In this document: positions 7,441-30,509 of the stretch, piece after piece
How positions within the stretch are numbered: position 1 is the first letter of the stretch
Layout of the letters: every line of letters starts with the position of its first letter
Assembly: GCA_017617545.1 (NCBI GenBank)
Contig: JAFZVZ010000044.1
Coordinates: forward strand, 124,001 to 188,000
Length of the DNA stretch: 64,000 nucleotides
Source of the DNA: Lachnospiraceae bacterium
Lineage (GTDB): Bacteria > Bacillota > Clostridia > Lachnospirales > Lachnospiraceae
Direction of reading: 5' to 3'
The notes under the pieces: generated by a model
Databases searched by the model: none
What the model saw: only the letters and a program-made list of their open reading frames with translations
What the model was told of the DNA's origin: nothing
Position numbers and translations under genes: made by a program

Positions 7441-8937
7441 ATGCAGTACATACTGGATACATTGGGAAACCTGGCGAAATCCACGGCGTTTGCATCCCTT
7501 ACGTGGGGCAACCTGCTGATGATCTGTGTCGCCTTGTTTTTCATGTATTTGGCGATTGCCAAGGATTATGAACCGCTTCTGCTGGTTCCGATCTCCTTCG
7601 GTATGCTTCTCGTAAATATGTATCCTTCGATCATGGCGGCTCCGGTCGACCATGTGTATACATTTTACGATAAGAACGACGCGATGATCGCTTGCGTCAA
7701 GAACGAAGAGGTCGAGTTTTTCCAGACGGAAAACGGTGTGACAAAATATGTCTTCGATGTAGGTGCCTACAACGATGACCAGGGGACGACGGAAGGTCTT
7801 CAGAGACTTGCTTCCTTCACCTCCATGACAGACCTTTACAAGTACTATGATGCTTCGAGTAAGACGGAGGATGAGCTTCGTCTCGGAACTTACTATGTGA
7901 TCTATGTTGACAGCAAAACCGGTACGGAACTGTTGTTCTACACGAAGACGCAGGGTGAATGCAGCAACTATGAGTGCACGGGAAGCACCCGGATGGAGGA
8001 TACCAAGCAGGCAGGCGGTCTGTTGTACTACTTCTTCCAGCTGGATGAGTGGGCGATCCTGCCGTGTCTGATCTTCATGGGCGTCGGCGCGATGACAGAC
8101 TTCGGACCGTTGATCGCAAACCCGAAGAGCTTCCTGCTCGGTGCTGCCGCACAGATGGGTATTTTCTGTGCATACCTGATGGCGATCTTCATGGGCTTCA
8201 ACGATAAGGCGGCTGCCGCAATCTCCATCATCGGCGGTGCGGACGGTCCTACCTCGATCTTCCTGGCCGGAAAGCTCGGTCAGACGGAATACATGGGTGC
8301 GATCGCGGTTGCGGCATACTCCTACATGTCGCTCGTTCCTATCATCCAGCCTCCGATCATGAAGCTTCTCACCACAGAGAAGGAGCGCAAGATCAAGATG
8401 GCACAGCTTCGTCCGGTTTCCAAACTGGAGAAGATCCTGTTCCCCATCATCGTTACGATCGTTGTTGTGGCGCTTCTTCCGGATACGGCTCCGCTGGTAG
8501 GCTGCCTGATGCTCGGTAACATTTTCCGCGAGTCCGGTGTTGTCCGTCAGCTGCAGGAGACGGCTTCGAACGCAATGATGTACATCGTTGTCATCATCCT
8601 CGGTACTTCCGTAGGTGCTACGACGAGTGCGGAGGCGTTCCTGAAGCTTGATACGCTGAAGATCGTCGCGCTCGGTCTGATCGCATTTGCGGTCGGTACG
8701 GCTGCGGGCGTTCTCTTCGGAAAGATTATGTGCAAGGCTACGCACGGAAAGATCAATCCTTTGATCGGTTCCGCGGGCGTGTCCGCTGTTCCCATGGCTG
8801 CGCGTGTTTCGCAGAAGGTCGGTGCGGAGGCTGATCCTTCCAACTTCCTTCTCATGCATGCGATGGGCCCGAACGTTGCAGGTGTTATCGGTACCGCGGT
8901 TGCGGCCGGTGTATTCATGGCAGTGTTCGGAGTATAA
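7441..8937 (+). CDS. Na+-translocating decarboxylase beta subunit (OadB family) with an extra domain
   Basis: The beta subunit decarboxylates carboxybiotin and uses the energy to export Na+. The family core is clear from about residue 200 onward: LIFMGVGAMTDFGPLIANP, the Na+-site motif IGGADGPTSIF (Asp268), and the C-terminal NVAGVIGTAVAAG. The protein is 498 aa, longer than the usual 370-430 aa. The excess is a hydrophilic segment of about 115 residues (about 65-185) between the first helices and the core, with no family I recognise and a likely position on one membrane face. The ribosome binding site GGGAGG lies 8 bases before the ATG. Confidence 0.92.
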   Translation: MQYILDTLGNLAKSTAFASLTWGNLLMICVALFFMYLAIAKDYEPLLLVPISFGMLLVNMYPSIMAAPVDHVYTFYDKNDAMIACVKNEEVEFFQTENGVTKYVFDVGAYNDDQGTTEGLQRLASFTSMTDLYKYYDASSKTEDELRLGTYYVIYVDSKTGTELLFYTKTQGECSNYECTGSTRMEDTKQAGGLLYYFFQLDEWAILPCLIFMGVGAMTDFGPLIANPKSFLLGAAAQMGIFCAYLMAIFMGFNDKAAAAISIIGGADGPTSIFLAGKLGQTEYMGAIAVAAYSYMSLVPIIQPPIMKLLTTEKERKIKMAQLRPVSKLEKILFPIIVTIVVVALLPDTAPLVGCLMLGNIFRESGVVRQLQETASNAMMYIVVIILGTSVGATTSAEAFLKLDTLKIVALGLIAFAVGTAAGVLFGKIMCKATHGKINPLIGSAGVSAVPMAARVSQKVGAEADPSNFLLMHAMGPNVAGVIGTAVAAGVFMAVFGV

Positions 8938-25461: not shown

Positions 25462-25884
25462 ATGGCAGATGTGAATTTCAAGGAGACTGTACAGAACCTG
25501 TTAAACGGGATGGAGGGCTTTGTGTCCACGAAGAGCGTCGTCGGAGACGCGAAGGTTCTGGAGGACGGAACCGTGATCATTCCTTTGGTGGATGTATCCT
25601 TCGCCGTAGGCGCGGGCGCATTTAACAAGGAGGCGAAGAACCGCGCGACCGGCGCTATGGGCGGCAAAATGTCCCCGTGCGCGGTGCTGATCATCCGCGA
25701 CGGCAACACGCGCCTTGTCAGCATCAAGGATCAGGATACGATGTCCCGCATCTTTGAGATGCTGCCCGATGTGGCGGAGCGCGTAAAGGGCATGATCGGC
25801 AAGAAGAAAAAGGATGACGAGGTGCCCGAGGAGACGATCAATGAGATCGCCGACGAGCTTCTGCGGGAAGGCGAGGAGAAGTGA
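25462..25884 (+). CDS. gerW: GerW family sporulation protein (YtfJ)
   Basis: The 140-aa protein shows the GerW core: VNFKETVQNLLNGMEGFV, GTVIIPLVDVSFAVGAG and the Gly-rich segment before CAVLIIRDG. In Bacillus GerW is needed for spore cortex and germination by certain receptors. A Lys-rich stretch and an acidic tail end the protein. The start at 25462 follows AAAAGGAGAGAAAC. The pair with DUF2953 upstream suggests this species forms spores, or descends from spore formers. Confidence 0.9.
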   Translation: MADVNFKETVQNLLNGMEGFVSTKSVVGDAKVLEDGTVIIPLVDVSFAVGAGAFNKEAKNRATGAMGGKMSPCAVLIIRDGNTRLVSIKDQDTMSRIFEMLPDVAERVKGMIGKKKKDDEVPEETINEIADELLREGEEK

Positions 25885-26004
25885 TTCCTGAGCCCGTCCG
25901 GAGATGGATGACAACAAGATTGTTTTGGGAATGCCGGCTCGATCCGGCATTTTCCGATTATACGGTAAATGAAGGTGCCGACGAAGGTTGATGGGAGATA
26001 CGCG

Positions 26005-27327
26005 ATGAGAGAAATCTGCAAACCGGATCCGTTGCTGACGAAGCTGCTGCCGCCGTTGAAACCCGTGCCGGGAGTTGTGTATGTGCCGTCGCAGTTCGCG
26101 CTGCGGTTTGAGCATAACGGAAGACAGTATGCGTTTCACACGATGATGAAGCAGTGCGTCGAGGCCAAGCTGCCGGAGCAGGCAGCGGCGGGCGAGGGCT
26201 ATGATGAGCTGATACAGGGGCAGTTCCTCGTGCCGTCGGACAGGGACGAGTGCGCCTATTACAACTCGGTGTCAACCCTGGTGCGCACGTACACGAGGAA
26301 AAGCGGCAACCGCGGGTTCACCATACTGCCTACGCTCGGATGCAACGCGCGCTGCGTGTACTGCTACGAGGAAGGCATGAAACCGGTGTCCATGACGCCG
26401 GAGACGGTGGAGCAGACGATCCGGTTTATCATAGACACGCACATCGGCGATACGGTGAAGCTCTCGTGGTTCGGCGGGGAGCCCCTGCTACGGCCGGACG
26501 TCATCGACCGGATCTGCGAGGGGATGCGGGAAGCCGGGCTTGAGTATTATTCCACGATGATCACGAACGGAAGCCTGATCACGGAGGAGATCATCCGAAA
26601 AATGAAAACCGACTGGAAGCTTAAGAGGATCCAGGTTTCCATGGACGGAGCGGAGGAGGAGTACATTTTCCGAAAGAAATATGTCGATTATCAGGATTAC
26701 TACCGGTCCGTGATGCGAGCCGTGAGCCGCATGTCCGAGGAAGGGATCCATGTCAACATCCGCTGTAATGTCGACACGAACAACATGGACGGCATCGAAC
26801 AGTTCCTGAGTGATCTGGAGAGCGGGATCGCGAACAAGGATAACGAGAGCATGTACTTAGCGCTGCTCAACAACGCCCGCATGGGAGACGATGACCTGTC
26901 GCTCTGGAAGAAGGTTGTTGAGTTTCAGGAGAAGCATAAAGCTTCGAAAATACGGCTTGGCCGGCTGATCGGACTGCGTCGTGGATTCCGAAAGAGCCAT
27001 TGTATGGCGGACGGCAACGGCGTGGTGATCGCACCGGACGGAAGCCTGTACCCGTGCGAGCATTGTCCGCCGGAAAGCCGGTTCGGCGATGTTTGGAACG
27101 GTACGACGGAGCCGTCGGTCAAAGACGAATTCTGCCGAACGGACATTACTGCTGAGAAATGCCGGAAATGCATGTTCCTCCCGGACTGCACCTCATTTTC
27201 CAACTGCCCGGTGAAGGACACCCACTGCCGGGAGCTGCGGGAGCTGGTCAACCTGAGCGCGCTCAGGGATATGATCGATCGCGCCGGAGATGGTGAGACG
27301 GCGGATGACGGAGACGCGTACTGCTGA
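26005..27327 (+). CDS. Radical SAM/SPASM peptide-modifying enzyme
   Basis: The 440-aa protein has the radical SAM [4Fe-4S] motif CNARCVYC (Cys113, Cys117, Cys120), the SAM-binding SWFGGEPLL, and a C-terminal SPASM region with extra cluster cysteines (SLYPCEHCPPE; CRKCMFLPDC; FSNCPVKDTHC). Such enzymes form thioether, C-C or other cross-links in ribosomal peptides. The N-terminal 100 residues have no clear RRE domain. The start at 26005 (MREICKPD) follows GGGAG; an ATG at 25969 is in frame but has a weak site. The PqqD-like protein and the Cys-containing peptide downstream are probable partners, though a promoter separates them. Confidence 0.9.
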   Translation: MREICKPDPLLTKLLPPLKPVPGVVYVPSQFALRFEHNGRQYAFHTMMKQCVEAKLPEQAAAGEGYDELIQGQFLVPSDRDECAYYNSVSTLVRTYTRKSGNRGFTILPTLGCNARCVYCYEEGMKPVSMTPETVEQTIRFIIDTHIGDTVKLSWFGGEPLLRPDVIDRICEGMREAGLEYYSTMITNGSLITEEIIRKMKTDWKLKRIQVSMDGAEEEYIFRKKYVDYQDYYRSVMRAVSRMSEEGIHVNIRCNVDTNNMDGIEQFLSDLESGIANKDNESMYLALLNNARMGDDDLSLWKKVVEFQEKHKASKIRLGRLIGLRRGFRKSHCMADGNGVVIAPDGSLYPCEHCPPESRFGDVWNGTTEPSVKDEFCRTDITAEKCRKCMFLPDCTSFSNCPVKDTHCRELRELVNLSALRDMIDRAGDGETADDGDAYC

Positions 27328-27408
27328 GTGATGCTGCGAGATGAAATCGGATTGTTTTTCGGTTGGGAGGAAATGCGCCGGAAAATGAACGATTTTCACA
27401 GAAATTGT

Positions 27409-27437
27409 TTGAATATTCTGCGGTAATGTTGTATCAT
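27409..27437 (+). promoter_or_regulatory. Candidate promoter of the PqqD-precursor operon
   Basis: TTGAAT (27409-27414), 17-bp spacer, TATCAT (27432-27437), about 43 bases before the GTG start. Confidence 0.6.
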
Positions 27438-27479
27438 GTTATCGTATTAGGGTACGGATGATGAACGGAGGGAACATCG

Positions 27480-27740
27480 GTGAGACTGAAGGACAATATC
27501 CTCACTCATGAGATCGATGGAACACAGTTTCTTGTCCCTGTCGGCGCGGAGGCGTTCAGGGGGATCGTGAGAAGCAACTCTTCAGCTGCTTTTATCGTGA
27601 ACTGCCTGAAGGAAGAAGTTACACGGGATCAGATTGTGGATGCGATGTGTGCCGAGTACGATGCGCCGAGAGAGGTTTTGGCTGCGGACGTCGATGAAGT
27701 ACTGGAGAAACTCCGTTCCATCGGAGCACTTACGGAATAA
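27480..27740 (+). CDS. PqqD-family peptide-binding protein (RRE)
   Basis: The 86-aa protein has the PqqD fold pattern: FLVPVGAEAFRGIVRSNSSA, a winged-helix-like VTRDQIVDAMCAEY and the final helix VDEVLEKLRSIGALTE. These proteins hold the leader of a precursor peptide and present it to modifying enzymes. It starts with GTG after GGAGGGAACATCG. The precursor gene begins 28 bases after its stop. A standalone PqqD next to a small peptide gene is strong evidence of a RiPP system. Confidence 0.88.
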   Translation: MRLKDNILTHEIDGTQFLVPVGAEAFRGIVRSNSSAAFIVNCLKEEVTRDQIVDAMCAEYDAPREVLAADVDEVLEKLRSIGALTE

Positions 27741-27768
27741 TAACACATGGTAAAGGAGAAGCCGGAAC

Positions 27769-27915
27769 ATGAAAAAGTATGTGAAAGCAGAACTTGAGTT
27801 GATCGACATCGAGACTGAGAACGCAATCCTGACCTCGTGCGGTGATATGGACTGCGGTAATGACGGCACCGATTGTGACAATACGTACGATCCTACTTCG
27901 GGTGCAGCCGGCTGA
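27769..27915 (+). CDS. Candidate RiPP precursor peptide, 48 aa
   Basis: A 48-residue peptide begins MKKYVKAELELIDIETENA and ends DNTYDPTSGAAG. The first 23 residues look like a leader, with the MKKYxKxELExI pattern seen in small peptides of Lachnospiraceae. From Cys24 the sequence is a short Cys/Asp/Gly-rich core with Cys24, Cys29 and Cys36 and no Lys or Arg. The start is supported by AAAGGAG about 12 bases upstream (27752-27758). It lies between a PqqD-like gene and an S26 peptidase, only three bases before the latter. The Cys residues may be cross-linked by the radical SAM enzyme upstream and the leader removed by the peptidase; both are inference. Confidence 0.85.
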   Translation: MKKYVKAELELIDIETENAILTSCGDMDCGNDGTDCDNTYDPTSGAAG

Positions 27916-27918
27916 TCT

Positions 27919-28356
27919 ATGTCGACATCATTTGAATCCTTTCTTGCCGAAGAGGGGAAACTTGTATACAAAACTCGCGGCGTGAGCATGGAACCGATGC
28001 TGCGACAGAACCGCGATCTAGTTGTCATCGAGGTACCGGACGGAAGGCTGAAGCGCTATGATGTAGCGTTTTACAAGCGGGGCGATGCGTATGTGCTGCA
28101 CCGCGTGATCCGAGTTACCGAGGACGGCTACCGGATCCGGGGGGACAATACCTACAGCATTGAGATCGTACCGGAAAGCAACGTCATCGGCGTCCTGACA
28201 GCGTTTAACCGCAAGGGGAAAGAGTACACAACGAATAATCGGGCATATCGTCGATATGTCCGATTTTGGTGTGCGATCTATCCGATCCGGGCGCTGTGGG
28301 TGCGTGCCCGCAGGCTCGGAGTAGGGATATTACGAAAACTCGGACTGCACAAGTGA
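27919..28356 (+). CDS. S24/S26 (signal peptidase-like) serine peptidase
   Basis: The 145-aa protein has the S26 boxes: TRGVSMEPML with nucleophile Ser23, RYDVAFYKRGD, YVLHRVI and IRGDNT. In the usual bacterial enzyme a Lys follows in the place where His61 stands here, so it belongs to the Ser/His type (SipW/ER-like). No N-terminal membrane helix is visible; a basic C-terminal tail (CAIYPIRALWVRARRLG) may touch the membrane. Start codon lies three bases after the precursor stop with no clear ribosome binding site, so translation is likely coupled. Probable role: cutting the precursor leader. Confidence 0.85.
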   Translation: MSTSFESFLAEEGKLVYKTRGVSMEPMLRQNRDLVVIEVPDGRLKRYDVAFYKRGDAYVLHRVIRVTEDGYRIRGDNTYSIEIVPESNVIGVLTAFNRKGKEYTTNNRAYRRYVRFWCAIYPIRALWVRARRLGVGILRKLGLHK

Positions 28357-28449
28357 CTTTAGCGGAACAACCGTTAAGACGAAGGCAGGATCGGGGATGT
28401 TGTGTTAGAGAATTGTTGAAACGGTAGTCTACGGATCGGAGCGGAACAA

Positions 28450-29640
28450 ATGGCGCAGGAAACCTCAAAAGAGATTTTGACCGCACAGAGCCAGGTGGTA
28501 AAGGACCTGGCTTATCTTGTGAGTTGTGCGGTAAACAGCCGTGCACCTGAGAAGGAACGGATCGCTTCGATGGACGTGGATGCGGTGCTGAAACTTGCTT
28601 CCCGCCATTCACTTGCAGCCGCTGCGTCGATGGCTCTCGAGAGTGGCGGATACAAGACGAAGGAAACCGTGACAAAGATTGCTATGGCAGTTCGCAAGAC
28701 GGCTTTCTTTGAAGCGGAGTGGGAGACGATCAGGAAGAAGCTTGAGGGAGCGGGGATATGGTATTTACCCTTGAAGGGCGTAGTTCTCAAATCCATGTAT
28801 CCCCAGTACGGCATGCGCGAGATGGCAGACCACGACATCCTTTTTGATGCGACCAGACAAGCGGATGTGCGTACTATCATGGAGGGACTCGGGTATACGA
28901 CAAAAGAATACGGAACTAGCAATCATGATGCTTACAATAAAGCGCCGGTGATGAGCTTTGAAATGCATTTGGAGTTGTTTGAGAATTGCTTTGACGAGCT
29001 GGAGAAAGTGTATTCGTATTATTCGGATATCGAAAAGAAACTGCTCGGAGAGGGATTCGAGAAGCATTTTTCGGACGAAGACTTCTACCTGCATTTGGTG
29101 GCACATGAATATAAGCATTATTGCGTTTCCGGCACAGGGCTTCGTTCGCTTCTCGATATTTACGTGTTCCTTACGCACAAGACACTGAACTGGAAGTATG
29201 TTGAGAAGGAAACGCGGGAAATGGGCTGCGCGGAGTATGAGAAGATTAACCGTGATCTGGCGTTTCAGTTGTTTGGTGACAGAGAAATGACGGCAGAGTG
29301 CGAGGATATGCTGACATACATCGTTTCCTCAGGTACGTACGGTAATCAGAAGATACGGGCTCAAAACAGAATGAATAAAAACGGGTGGGGGAAAACCCGG
29401 TACATGTTAAGCAGGTTCTCTGTTCCGTTCAGTAAAAAGAACAAGCGATATGAAGTATATTCCCGTAGATATCCGACATTTTACAAGCACAAGATCCTGC
29501 TTCCGCTGCTGCCGTTCTACCGCACCGCGAAAGCGATCCGGCGCGGCAGTTTCAAGAATGAATTCCAGTCGATCCGGGAGGCCGACGCGAGCGGAGCAAA
29601 GTCGCCGGAAAGCGCGGGAACGGATGCGAAGAAGGAATGA
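28450..29640 (+). CDS. Nucleotidyltransferase-like protein (PF14907 type)
   Basis: The 396-aa protein has the pattern of the uncharacterised nucleotidyltransferase family: WYLPLKGVVLKSMYPQYGMREMADHDILFD (shown here as the site with R and D-x-D-like residues, near 107-135), then FEMHLELFENCFDELEKVY and a helical C-terminal half. Members are often encoded in lasso-peptide and other RiPP loci, with a proposed adenylyl or similar transfer. GATCGGAGCGGAACAA precedes the ATG. It sits 93 bases after the S26 peptidase and ends before a separate ribosomal operon, so it closes the cluster. The substrate is unknown. Confidence 0.75.
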   Translation: MAQETSKEILTAQSQVVKDLAYLVSCAVNSRAPEKERIASMDVDAVLKLASRHSLAAAASMALESGGYKTKETVTKIAMAVRKTAFFEAEWETIRKKLEGAGIWYLPLKGVVLKSMYPQYGMREMADHDILFDATRQADVRTIMEGLGYTTKEYGTSNHDAYNKAPVMSFEMHLELFENCFDELEKVYSYYSDIEKKLLGEGFEKHFSDEDFYLHLVAHEYKHYCVSGTGLRSLLDIYVFLTHKTLNWKYVEKETREMGCAEYEKINRDLAFQLFGDREMTAECEDMLTYIVSSGTYGNQKIRAQNRMNKNGWGKTRYMLSRFSVPFSKKNKRYEVYSRRYPTFYKHKILLPLLPFYRTAKAIRRGSFKNEFQSIREADASGAKSPESAGTDAKKE

Positions 29641-29672
29641 ACAAGGTTTTCGTAAAATACGAAAAATAGTGC

Positions 29673-29701
29673 TTGCATTTTCCGAACAAGTTTGATACTA
29701 T
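29673..29701 (+). promoter_or_regulatory. rpmB promoter
   Basis: TTGCAT (29673-29678), 17-bp spacer, TACTAT (29696-29701). The spacer begins with the over-represented octamer ATTTTCCG (29677-29684). Confidence 0.8.
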
Positions 29702-29749
29702 ACTACTGTTCGGTTTTTGAAGACTTATTTCAAAAGGAGGTGCGATATC

Positions 29750-29947
29750 ATGGCTAAGTGTGATATTTGTGATAAAGGCGCTCTGTTCGGAAGACAGATC
29801 AGCATTACGAGAAGTCAGGTTTCCGGACGTGCCAACAGAATGTGGAAGTCCAATGTGAAGTCGGTTCATGTAAAGGTGAACGGCGGAACCAAGAAGATGC
29901 ACGTTTGCACAGCTTGCCTCAGAGCAGGTCTTGTTGAGCGTGCGTAA
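29750..29947 (+). CDS. rpmB: 50S ribosomal protein L28
   Basis: A 65-aa ribosomal protein with CDICDKGALFG at the start and TACLRAGLVERA at the end. Two CxxC pairs (Cys4/Cys7 and Cys54/Cys57) show the zinc-binding form of L28. The start at 29750 follows a perfect AAAGGAGGTG. It has its own promoter and terminator, then asp23-fakA-recG as in many Firmicutes. Confidence 0.97.
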   Translation: MAKCDICDKGALFGRQISITRSQVSGRANRMWKSNVKSVHVKVNGGTKKMHVCTACLRAGLVERA

Positions 29948-29967
29948 TCAACTGCGAATGTATGGAA

Positions 29968-30018
29968 GAGTCCGATAAAGCGATTCTGTGAAGGATTGTT
30001 TTATCGGGCTCTTTTGTG
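29968..30018 (+). terminator. Intrinsic terminator after rpmB
   Basis: GAGTCCGATAAA (29968-29979) pairs with TTTATCGGGCTC (30000-30011), followed by TTTTGTGTT. Confidence 0.9.
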
Positions 30019-30039
30019 TTGTGCGGGGGTAATCGCGGC

Positions 30040-30068
30040 TTGCATTTTTCGCGTGACTGTACTATAAT
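30040..30068 (+). promoter_or_regulatory. Promoter of asp23-fakA
   Basis: TTGCAT (30040-30045), 17-bp spacer, TATAAT (30063-30068). Confidence 0.9.
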
Positions 30069-30152
30069 GAGCGGGGATTTGCGGGAGCAAGTCCTACAAA
30101 ACGTTTGCGCTTGCGAAGGGGAACGCGGCTGCAGACGGGAAAGAGGTGTACC

Positions 30153-30509
30153 ATGGACGGAAATTTAGAGACCAAGTATGGGGAAGTTTATATTGATCTG
30201 GATGTGATCGCACAGTATGCGGGTTCCGCTGCCGTGGAGAATTTCGGCGTGGTCGGAATGTCGGCCGTAAGCATGAAGGACGGTTTGGCGAAGCTGCTTC
30301 GCAGAGAGAGCTTAAGCCACGGTGTTCAGGTGCAGATCGACGGCAACAAGCTTACGATCGATCTTCATATCATTGTATCTTACGGGATCAGTGTGGCGAC
30401 AGTCTGCCAGAACCTGTGTGAGACGGTCAAGTACCGCGTGGAAGAATTTTCCGGATTGATCGTAGAGAAAATTAATGTCTATGTCGACGGAGTACGCGTG
30501 ATCGACTGA
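30153..30509 (+). CDS. Asp23/Gls24 family protein (YloU-like)
   Basis: The 118-aa protein has the Asp23 signatures YIDLDVIAQYAGSAAVENFGVVGM and VNVYVDGVRV-like ending (INVYVDGVRVID). Relatives are membrane-associated envelope or stress proteins; YloU lies next to fakA/yloV in Bacillus. The start at 30153 follows GAAAGAGG and gives the normal N-terminus. It is followed by fakA after 75 bases. Confidence 0.92.
   Translation: MDGNLETKYGEVYIDLDVIAQYAGSAAVENFGVVGMSAVSMKDGLAKLLRRESLSHGVQVQIDGNKLTIDLHIIVSYGISVATVCQNLCETVKYRVEEFSGLIVEKINVYVDGVRVID

Follow-up and report, generated by a model that had tools for sequence, protein, structure and literature searches.

The window considered here is a stretch of 64,000 nucleotides from a Lachnospiraceae bacterium (contig JAFZVZ010000044.1, positions 124,001-188,000; positions below are window coordinates), in which five genes lie on the forward strand between ytfJ and rpmB, encoding a radical S-adenosylmethionine (rSAM)/SPASM enzyme, a PqqD-family recognition element (RRE) for ribosomally synthesized and post-translationally modified peptides (RiPPs), a peptide of 48 residues, an S26 peptidase and a PF14907 protein. 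The successive gaps within this set are 152, 28, 3 and 93 bases, and the open reading frames (ORFs) and the sequence confirm what the original prediction had described, namely five genes in one direction, with gaps of 28, 3 and 93 bases and a tiny peptide in the centre. Judging from the sequence, the locus very probably makes a modified peptide and, by analogy with a characterized system, we regard it as likely that the genes constitute a RiPP pathway built on the logic of the linear polyphosphorylated peptides (LPPs) and fitted with an rSAM/SPASM maturase for a cysteine-containing core. In the labels used below, G000 is the window's own genome (2.7 Mb, 45 contigs), G020 is a sister species, a metagenome-assembled genome that carries the same operon, and L and C numbers denote loci and contigs, respectively. 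The genes and the parts of the peptide are the following:

26005..27327, forward strand: rSAM/SPASM peptide maturase, 440 residues (Pfam Radical_SAM, 1e-21; best NCBIfam match TIGR04463)
27480..27740, forward strand: discrete RRE of the PqqD family, 86 residues (Pfam PqqD, 3.5e-15)
27769..27915, forward strand: putative RiPP precursor peptide, 48 residues (leader-profile match, dN/dS, Shine-Dalgarno-like AAAGGAG upstream)
27769..27837, forward strand: leader, residues 1-23 (MKKYVKAELELIDIETENAILTS), with a predicted cut after Ser23 (leader alignment, sister comparison)
27838..27912, forward strand: core, residues 24-48, with Cys24, Cys29, Cys36 and six Asp (read from the sequence)
27919..28356, forward strand: putative S26 leader peptidase of the SipW/archaeal type, without transmembrane segment, 145 residues (NCBIfam, alignments)
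28450..29640, forward strand: PF14907 (NTP_transf_5) nucleotidyltransferase, 396 residues (Pfam, 4.4e-40)

The 48-residue peptide matched no Pfam or NCBIfam family, and a search with this single peptide in 250 family genomes gave, beyond itself, nothing better than E 0.002. When a leader profile was made from 23 precursors, those of the window and the sister not being among them, and run against the 1542 segments of the six-frame translated window, the peptide was its sole significant match (E 3.1e-8), the next-best segment having an E of 1.9. The sister peptide is 81% identical (dN 0.16, dS 1.10, dN/dS about 0.15), with 22 of the 23 leader residues unchanged and a core that varies, yet keeps all three cysteines. 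Related precursors (alignments A4 and A5) share the pattern MxxYxKPxMEVIxL..DVIxTS, followed by a variable core, and tandem paralogues stand beside the same enzymes in several loci (three in L172, two each in L074, L087, L106 and L113). From these comparisons the ORF is a genuine gene, not a chance ORF, and its product looks like a RiPP precursor, with a conserved leader, a variable Cys/Asp-rich core and signs of selection. The A5 leaders (n = 25, row ends placed by the analyst) end in Ser (22), Thr (2) or Ala (1), and two residues before the end Leu, Val, Ile or Thr is found in 24 of the 25. Signal peptidase sites have a small residue at -1 and a tolerant -3 position, and since the leader ends fit this rule, cleavage is predicted after Ser23.

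Residues of likely functional importance are conserved in the proteins encoded around the peptide. In the RRE, Asn33 and Asp70 are invariant in 27 of 27 relatives and kept, each, in 59 of 60 sequences of a wider set. Its best match by sequence among solved structures is TbiB1 (5v1u, 8.6e-8), which we take to be a lasso-peptide RRE. It also aligns without a gap to LppB (PDB 9x8z), Asn33 and Asp70 falling on Asn33 and Asp70, at an E of 0.1 that is weak by itself. The LPP genes, lppA-K-B-S-D-N of Paenibacillus alginolyticus, were published in 2026, and according to the main text LppB is a discrete RRE in which Asp70 grips Tyr-16 of the leader and Asn33 holds a kink at Pro-13 (PMC13381572). In the S26 protein, Ser23 and His61 are invariant in 17 aligned sequences, Asp76 in alignments A1 and A8, and Glu82 in A8; its matches to Peptidase_S24 (Pfam, 0.0027), TIGR02228 (1.2e-7) and the SipW model (0.0018) are below cut-off, and no transmembrane stretch was detected (Kyte-Doolittle maximum of 0.93 over 19 residues). 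Its LPP counterpart, LppS, is described in the same text as a SipW-like Ser/His/Asp peptidase that cut LppA in vitro only when LppB was present and that was inactive as S29A, H68A or D93A variant (PMC13381572). The PF14907 protein keeps Lys109-Gly110, Asp127-x-Asp129 and His219 in 29 of 29 sequences.

The rSAM protein was taken to start at 26005, where its orthologues begin at a matching methionine; a longer ORF from 25969 is possible. It has a CX3CX2C motif at positions 113, 117 and 120, eight more cysteines between 333 and 408 and a C-terminal Cys440, a set that 21-23 of the 22-23 aligned sequences share and that agrees with the cysteines of SPASM-type auxiliary clusters; the Pfam SPASM match itself is below cut-off (0.015, 16 bits). 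Scores against the NCBIfam maturase families are all below the curated cut-offs (PapB, 111 of 340 bits; TIGR04463, 140.5 of 525; Clo7bot, 109.9 of 600). Among solved structures the best profile match is 5wgg, presumably CteB, the SCIFF thioether maturase. Between window and sister the gene shows a dN of 0.12 and a dS of 0.64, with a stop codon of the sister copy left out, and is thus under selection.

The rSAM gene and the cysteines of the core go together. The search with the leader-only profile A5 covered the family to which G675 belongs (250 genomes) and the window's genus (22 genomes), and all 56 matches at E ≤0.01 (46 and 10, the window's own included) were scored. Core cysteines are present in 30 of the 31 precursors that lie within 6 kb of an rSAM gene, whichever of the tested types it belongs to, compared with five of the 25 others (Fisher, 1.2e-9), in counts that ignore kinship among the genomes and include rSAM-minus loci ending at contig edges. 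Most of the leaders on which the profile was trained came from rSAM loci; when only leaders outside the profile are counted, the figures are 18 of 19 and 5 of 24 (P 1.2e-6), and for cores of 8-30 residues only, 20 of 21 and 5 of 20 (P 3.4e-6). Of the core residues, cysteine accounts for 96 of 981 where an rSAM gene is nearby and for 5 of 312 where none is, and in two of the five Cys-containing precursors of the latter group (L238 and L246) a short profile match pushes a leader cysteine into the core. The fourth position of the YxxP motif differs as well, being Pro or Ala in 29 of the 31 rSAM precursors and Leu in 13 of the 25 others.

Conserved neighbourhoods were examined from two sides. When public genomes were scanned with S26 as seed, 207 stretches were confirmed and the best 80 of them kept; most carry titles naming Clostridia or families of this class, and ruminants are the source of many. 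On the strand of the match, S26 is accompanied by PqqD in 53, an HprK-like kinase in 32, PF14907 in 30 and rSAM in 19 of these loci; when the queries were limited to those from the window plus the L023 HprK and both strands were considered, the counts are 54, 31, 29 and 18, and PqqD is present in all 18 rSAM loci. L104 and L112 are complete clusters, with HprK-like kinase, precursor, rSAM, PqqD, S26, ATP-binding cassette (ABC) exporter and PF14907. Starting from the rSAM protein, 10 of the 250 genomes of the G675 family match at E 1e-60, eight of them with at least 50% identity, and these eight close orthologues, the seed locus included, all have a precursor within 4 kb. PqqD accompanies seven, the eighth (L174) ending at a contig edge; S26 is seen with four, L173 has none in 15 kb and the other three end at contig edges. 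A class-wide rSAM search at E 1e-40 retrieved matches in three of 391 genomes, the window's copy and two proteins of 32% identity, and a scan of viral contigs gave one marginal match of 28 residues. The succession rSAM-PqqD-precursor is seen again at a different site of the related genome G011, where an exporter gene follows. The same gene set is thus found in related gut bacteria. The suggestion that the maturase is only loosely tied to the other genes fails against its regular company of PqqD and precursor and the order repeated in G011: the rSAM gene is not loosely tied, and core cysteine tracks it.

Other gene combinations were noticed in these searches. Four genus genomes (L023, L027, L028 and L029) hold a cluster that is related to, but distinct from, that of the window, with a secreted protein of about 440 residues, rSAM, a short peptide, HprK-like kinase, a TraX-like membrane protein (PF05857, 6e-32 in L023; by look-alike sequence in the others), unexpected in a RiPP cluster, and S26. 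Loci L127, L132, L133, L134, L137-L140 and L142 are HprK/PqqD/S26 clusters, most with PF14907, in which this leader type was not found and a conserved protein of about 107 residues (MKYK...GEMLLAER or similar) lies upstream of HprK.

The site occupied by the genes is short in most relatives. Among 23 ytfJ loci from 22 genomes of the genus, four of them unreadable at this site, the cluster is found between ytfJ and rpmB only in the window and in G020, and because the two genes lie only 97-184 bases apart, without the cluster, in 16 of the 23, the five genes look like an insertion in the window/G020 lineage. In G011, the site holds a 33-residue precursor-like peptide and a PF14907 gene in place of the cluster. 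Two further features lie in the spacers:

25930..25951, no strand assigned: inverted repeat between ytfJ and the rSAM gene, 8-bp stem, 6-base loop and short T tail, a possible ytfJ terminator (read from the sequence)
27409..27437, forward strand: promoter-like TTGAAT-17-TATCAT, 5' of the PqqD gene (9 of 12 consensus matches)

The stretch of the inverted repeat is kept in the sister and was not listed by a terminator scan. As for the promoter that the original prediction had placed before the PqqD gene, the motif is present and its stretch is largely kept in the sister, but chance alone would give as many matches of this kind (two found in the scan versus 3.3 expected).

Two parts of the LPP machinery are encoded elsewhere in G000. 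An HprK-like kinase is a lone gene at G000:C30:47652-48371, 50% identical to the kinase of L094, and an MsbA-like ABC exporter is found at G000:C34:4546-6210, 56% identical to that of L104, the next ABC protein being 26% identical; neither is encoded in the locus. G020 has an HprK-like kinase of 49% identity. The earlier statement that no exporter gene is present is therefore right for the locus and wrong for the genome; absence of an exporter from the organism was considered and rejected on account of the gene on C34.

The likeness to the LPP system comprises a discrete, predicted Tyr-selective RRE in which Asn33 and Asp70 are common to LppB and the window protein, a gene for a putative SipW-like (SpI) leader peptidase, a nucleoside triphosphate (NTP) transferase with its D-x-D intact, matched to LppN by description only, and a leader of the YxxP/A type, to which the relatives add HprK-like kinase and ABC exporter. 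In Paenibacillus, LppK phosphorylates Ser3, LppD is named as export pump and deletion of LppN caused no detectable change, as given in the main text (PMC13381572). In contrast, the window has an rSAM/SPASM enzyme and a Cys core, kinase and exporter are encoded in trans rather than in the cluster, and the hosts are Clostridia, many from ruminants. The leader motif, YVKAELELIDIETENAILTS, keeps the tyrosine and the hydrophobic register, with Ala for Pro (YxxA) and neither HQ nor FET, and does not match YxxPxVLxHQxIxFETxxS of the LPP leaders. With kinase and exporter outside the cluster and a different leader motif, the locus was not filed as LPP, although it would work in a similar way. The term 'radical SAM' is absent from the main text of the LPP paper (PMC13381572), and no description of an rSAM variant with a SipW-like peptidase was recognised in the open-access literature, a search that did not cover most subscription papers, preprints and supplements; for these reasons we count the rSAM and Cys-core form of the LPP-type module as a novel version of a known logic. 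LPP-like clusters of Clostridia with the genes HprK-PqqD-S26-ABC-PF14907 and without rSAM were also seen (L233, L236 and L237), and their precursors, three of them in tandem in L233, have 27-29 residues, YEAL or YETL leaders and Cys-free tails of 4-6 residues.

A plain LPP locus, with the rSAM gene as an unrelated neighbour, would agree with the promoter-like site and the 152-base gap that set this gene apart, with its absence from 61 of the 80 S26-seeded loci and with the silence of the LPP main text (PMC13381572) on such enzymes. We consider this very unlikely and rejected chance neighbourship of the rSAM gene, given the co-occurrence with PqqD (18 of 18), the proximity of a precursor (8 of 8), the association with core cysteine, the order repeated in G011 and the selection acting on the gene. 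A narrower proposal, compatible with the pathway that we favour, is that the product belongs to the ranthipeptides proper, like those of PapB or Clo7bot, and carries Cys-X3-Asp/Glu thioethers. Ranthipeptides (PapA/PapB, TIGR04463, Clo7bot) likewise have an rSAM/SPASM maturase beside a short Cys/Asp-rich peptide (excerpts of PMC9413430), in NCBIfam the window enzyme is nearest to the TIGR04463 and PapB maturases, among solved structures its profile matches 5wgg best, and the window peptide has one CX3D (C24-GDM-D28). Across 33 cores, however, Asp or Glu stands at Cys+4 for 13 of 73 cysteines versus 15.8 expected, an absence of enrichment, and the excess at Cys+3 (23 of 74 versus 16.3 expected, nominal p 0.037) is lost on correction for seven offsets. 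Together with a separate RRE and a SipW-like peptidase, these features distinguish the locus; we rejected ranthipeptide as a firm label, and did not file the locus so, because the scores are far below the family cut-offs and Cys+4 is not enriched in Asp or Glu, and we hold the thioether proposal as a tentative possibility, somewhat less likely to be right than wrong.

That the short ORF encodes an unmodified small protein, a regulator or toxin-like, whose neighbours serve other substrates, would be in keeping with the absence of a known product and of a Pfam or NCBIfam family, but is hardly to be expected of a peptide with a near-invariant leader bearing an RRE-ligand motif, a variable core and tandem paralogues beside the same enzymes; we regard it as highly improbable. 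Slighter still is the chance that the locus is what a lasso-peptide cluster left after losing its cyclase, RRE and NTP transferase being the remnants. TbiB1 is the nearest solved RRE by sequence, and paeninodin-like loci typically encode a PqqD-type RRE, an NTP transferase and an HprK-like kinase (PMC13381572, main text). On the other side, the leader is of Tyr and not Trp type, Asp70 stands where PbaB1 has Gln, the peptidase is SipW-like and rSAM and Cys core are common to the relatives; a B2 peptidase and a macrolactam synthetase (the asparagine-synthetase-like cyclase) are not among the genes of 25500-30200, a statement limited to these locus ORFs, since neither the rest of the genome nor the neighbours in relatives were searched for them.

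We thus favour an LPP-type RiPP pathway with an added rSAM/SPASM maturase. In the proposed mechanism, the PqqD-type RRE would hold the leader with Tyr4 in its pocket, and the rSAM enzyme would modify the Cys-containing core, most probably through intramolecular links that start at the cysteines. Next, the leader, presented by the RRE, would be cut in the cytosol by the SipW-like S26 peptidase, with Ser23 as the most likely residue before the cut. The PF14907 enzyme would probably attach a group of nucleotidyl or sugar-like kind, possibly to a phosphate set by the distant HprK-like kinase, and the ABC exporter encoded elsewhere would carry the product out. That the leader is bound, the Cys core modified by radical chemistry and the cleavage dependent on the RRE appears likely because the key residues are conserved and the LPP system offers a precedent. 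The roles originally assigned, PqqD as binder, rSAM as modifying enzyme and S26 as protease, are likewise supported by the conserved neighbourhoods and, by analogy, the LPP experiments, modification and cleavage themselves remaining predictions. What the sequences show directly is the gene content, the conserved key residues, the family of precursors, the link between rSAM and core cysteine and the existence of the distant parts; each biochemical step, the sequence of steps, the type of cross-link, the site of the cut and the biological role are deduced.

Several observations weigh against this mechanism, besides the kinship and contig edges that bear on the counts above. The rSAM gene of the sister genome has a single in-frame stop inside SPASM, either a real inactivation or an assembly error, and a close ABC exporter was not found in this assembly, which is 82% complete (best match 26%). 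Among the 80 S26 loci, 13 show no other query on the match strand and 10 more an ABC match only. Sarcina sp. DSM 11001 has two rSAM-precursor loci without PqqD or S26 within about 7 kb, and an HprK-PqqD-S26 locus apart from both. In the S26 protein, the residue spaced like LppS Asp93, by spacing alone, is Glu86. In the leader, YxxA replaces the YxxP of LPP leaders, and a P-13A change weakened LppB binding (PMC13381572, main text), an objection softened by the occurrence of [YF]xxA in eight of the 56 precursors, seven of these near an rSAM gene.

G000 contains another precursor, Cys-free and with YEKP in its leader (G000:C44:125139-125207), 17 bases behind the gene of a 2355-residue protein with a signal-peptide-like start. 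Eight of 19 checked precursors, mostly without core cysteine, are found 16-76 bp downstream of genes for large proteins of 1015-2398 residues (L221, at 8113-8208 on the minus strand of G000:C44, L226, L228, L231, L234, L235, L238 and L247). These giant proteins have a common C-terminal domain, ALxYVxxVL...ALYxYYxAAxxY, and several have, by eye, a signal-peptide-like start. The domain is matched in seven of the 22 genus genomes (7-13 matches in four), and an S26 gene is present in six of these seven versus 10 of all 22. In G016, two further peptides lie behind the domain (L292 and L300), and many domain proteins of G004, G008, G016 and G018 are without any detected peptide. In G011, the system is spread over five loci (L030, L223, L224, L225 and L308), which hold PqqD-S26; PqqD, a partial PF14907 and a precursor; HprK by three opposite-strand precursor-like ORFs; rSAM-PqqD-precursor-ABC; and precursor-PF14907.

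A joint reading would make the window the hub of a genome-wide, trans-acting maturation, in which one set of RRE, peptidase and NTP transferase serves scattered precursors, those with Cys cores being cross-linked by the rSAM enzyme and those without cysteine lying behind giant secreted proteins, and in which the matured peptides act with, or attach to, these surface proteins; we offer it as speculation that is rather unlikely to hold in full.

The locus would join two RiPP worlds, as an rSAM/SPASM maturase stands with a SipW-type leader peptidase and a Tyr-selective RRE, and the 56 scored precursors, with and without a nearby rSAM gene, make substrate specificity directly testable. The distant kinase and exporter suggest that the parts of a RiPP pathway can be scattered over one genome, so that cluster-based mining would miss such pathways, and the giant secreted proteins may provide a first functional lead for LPP-type peptides.

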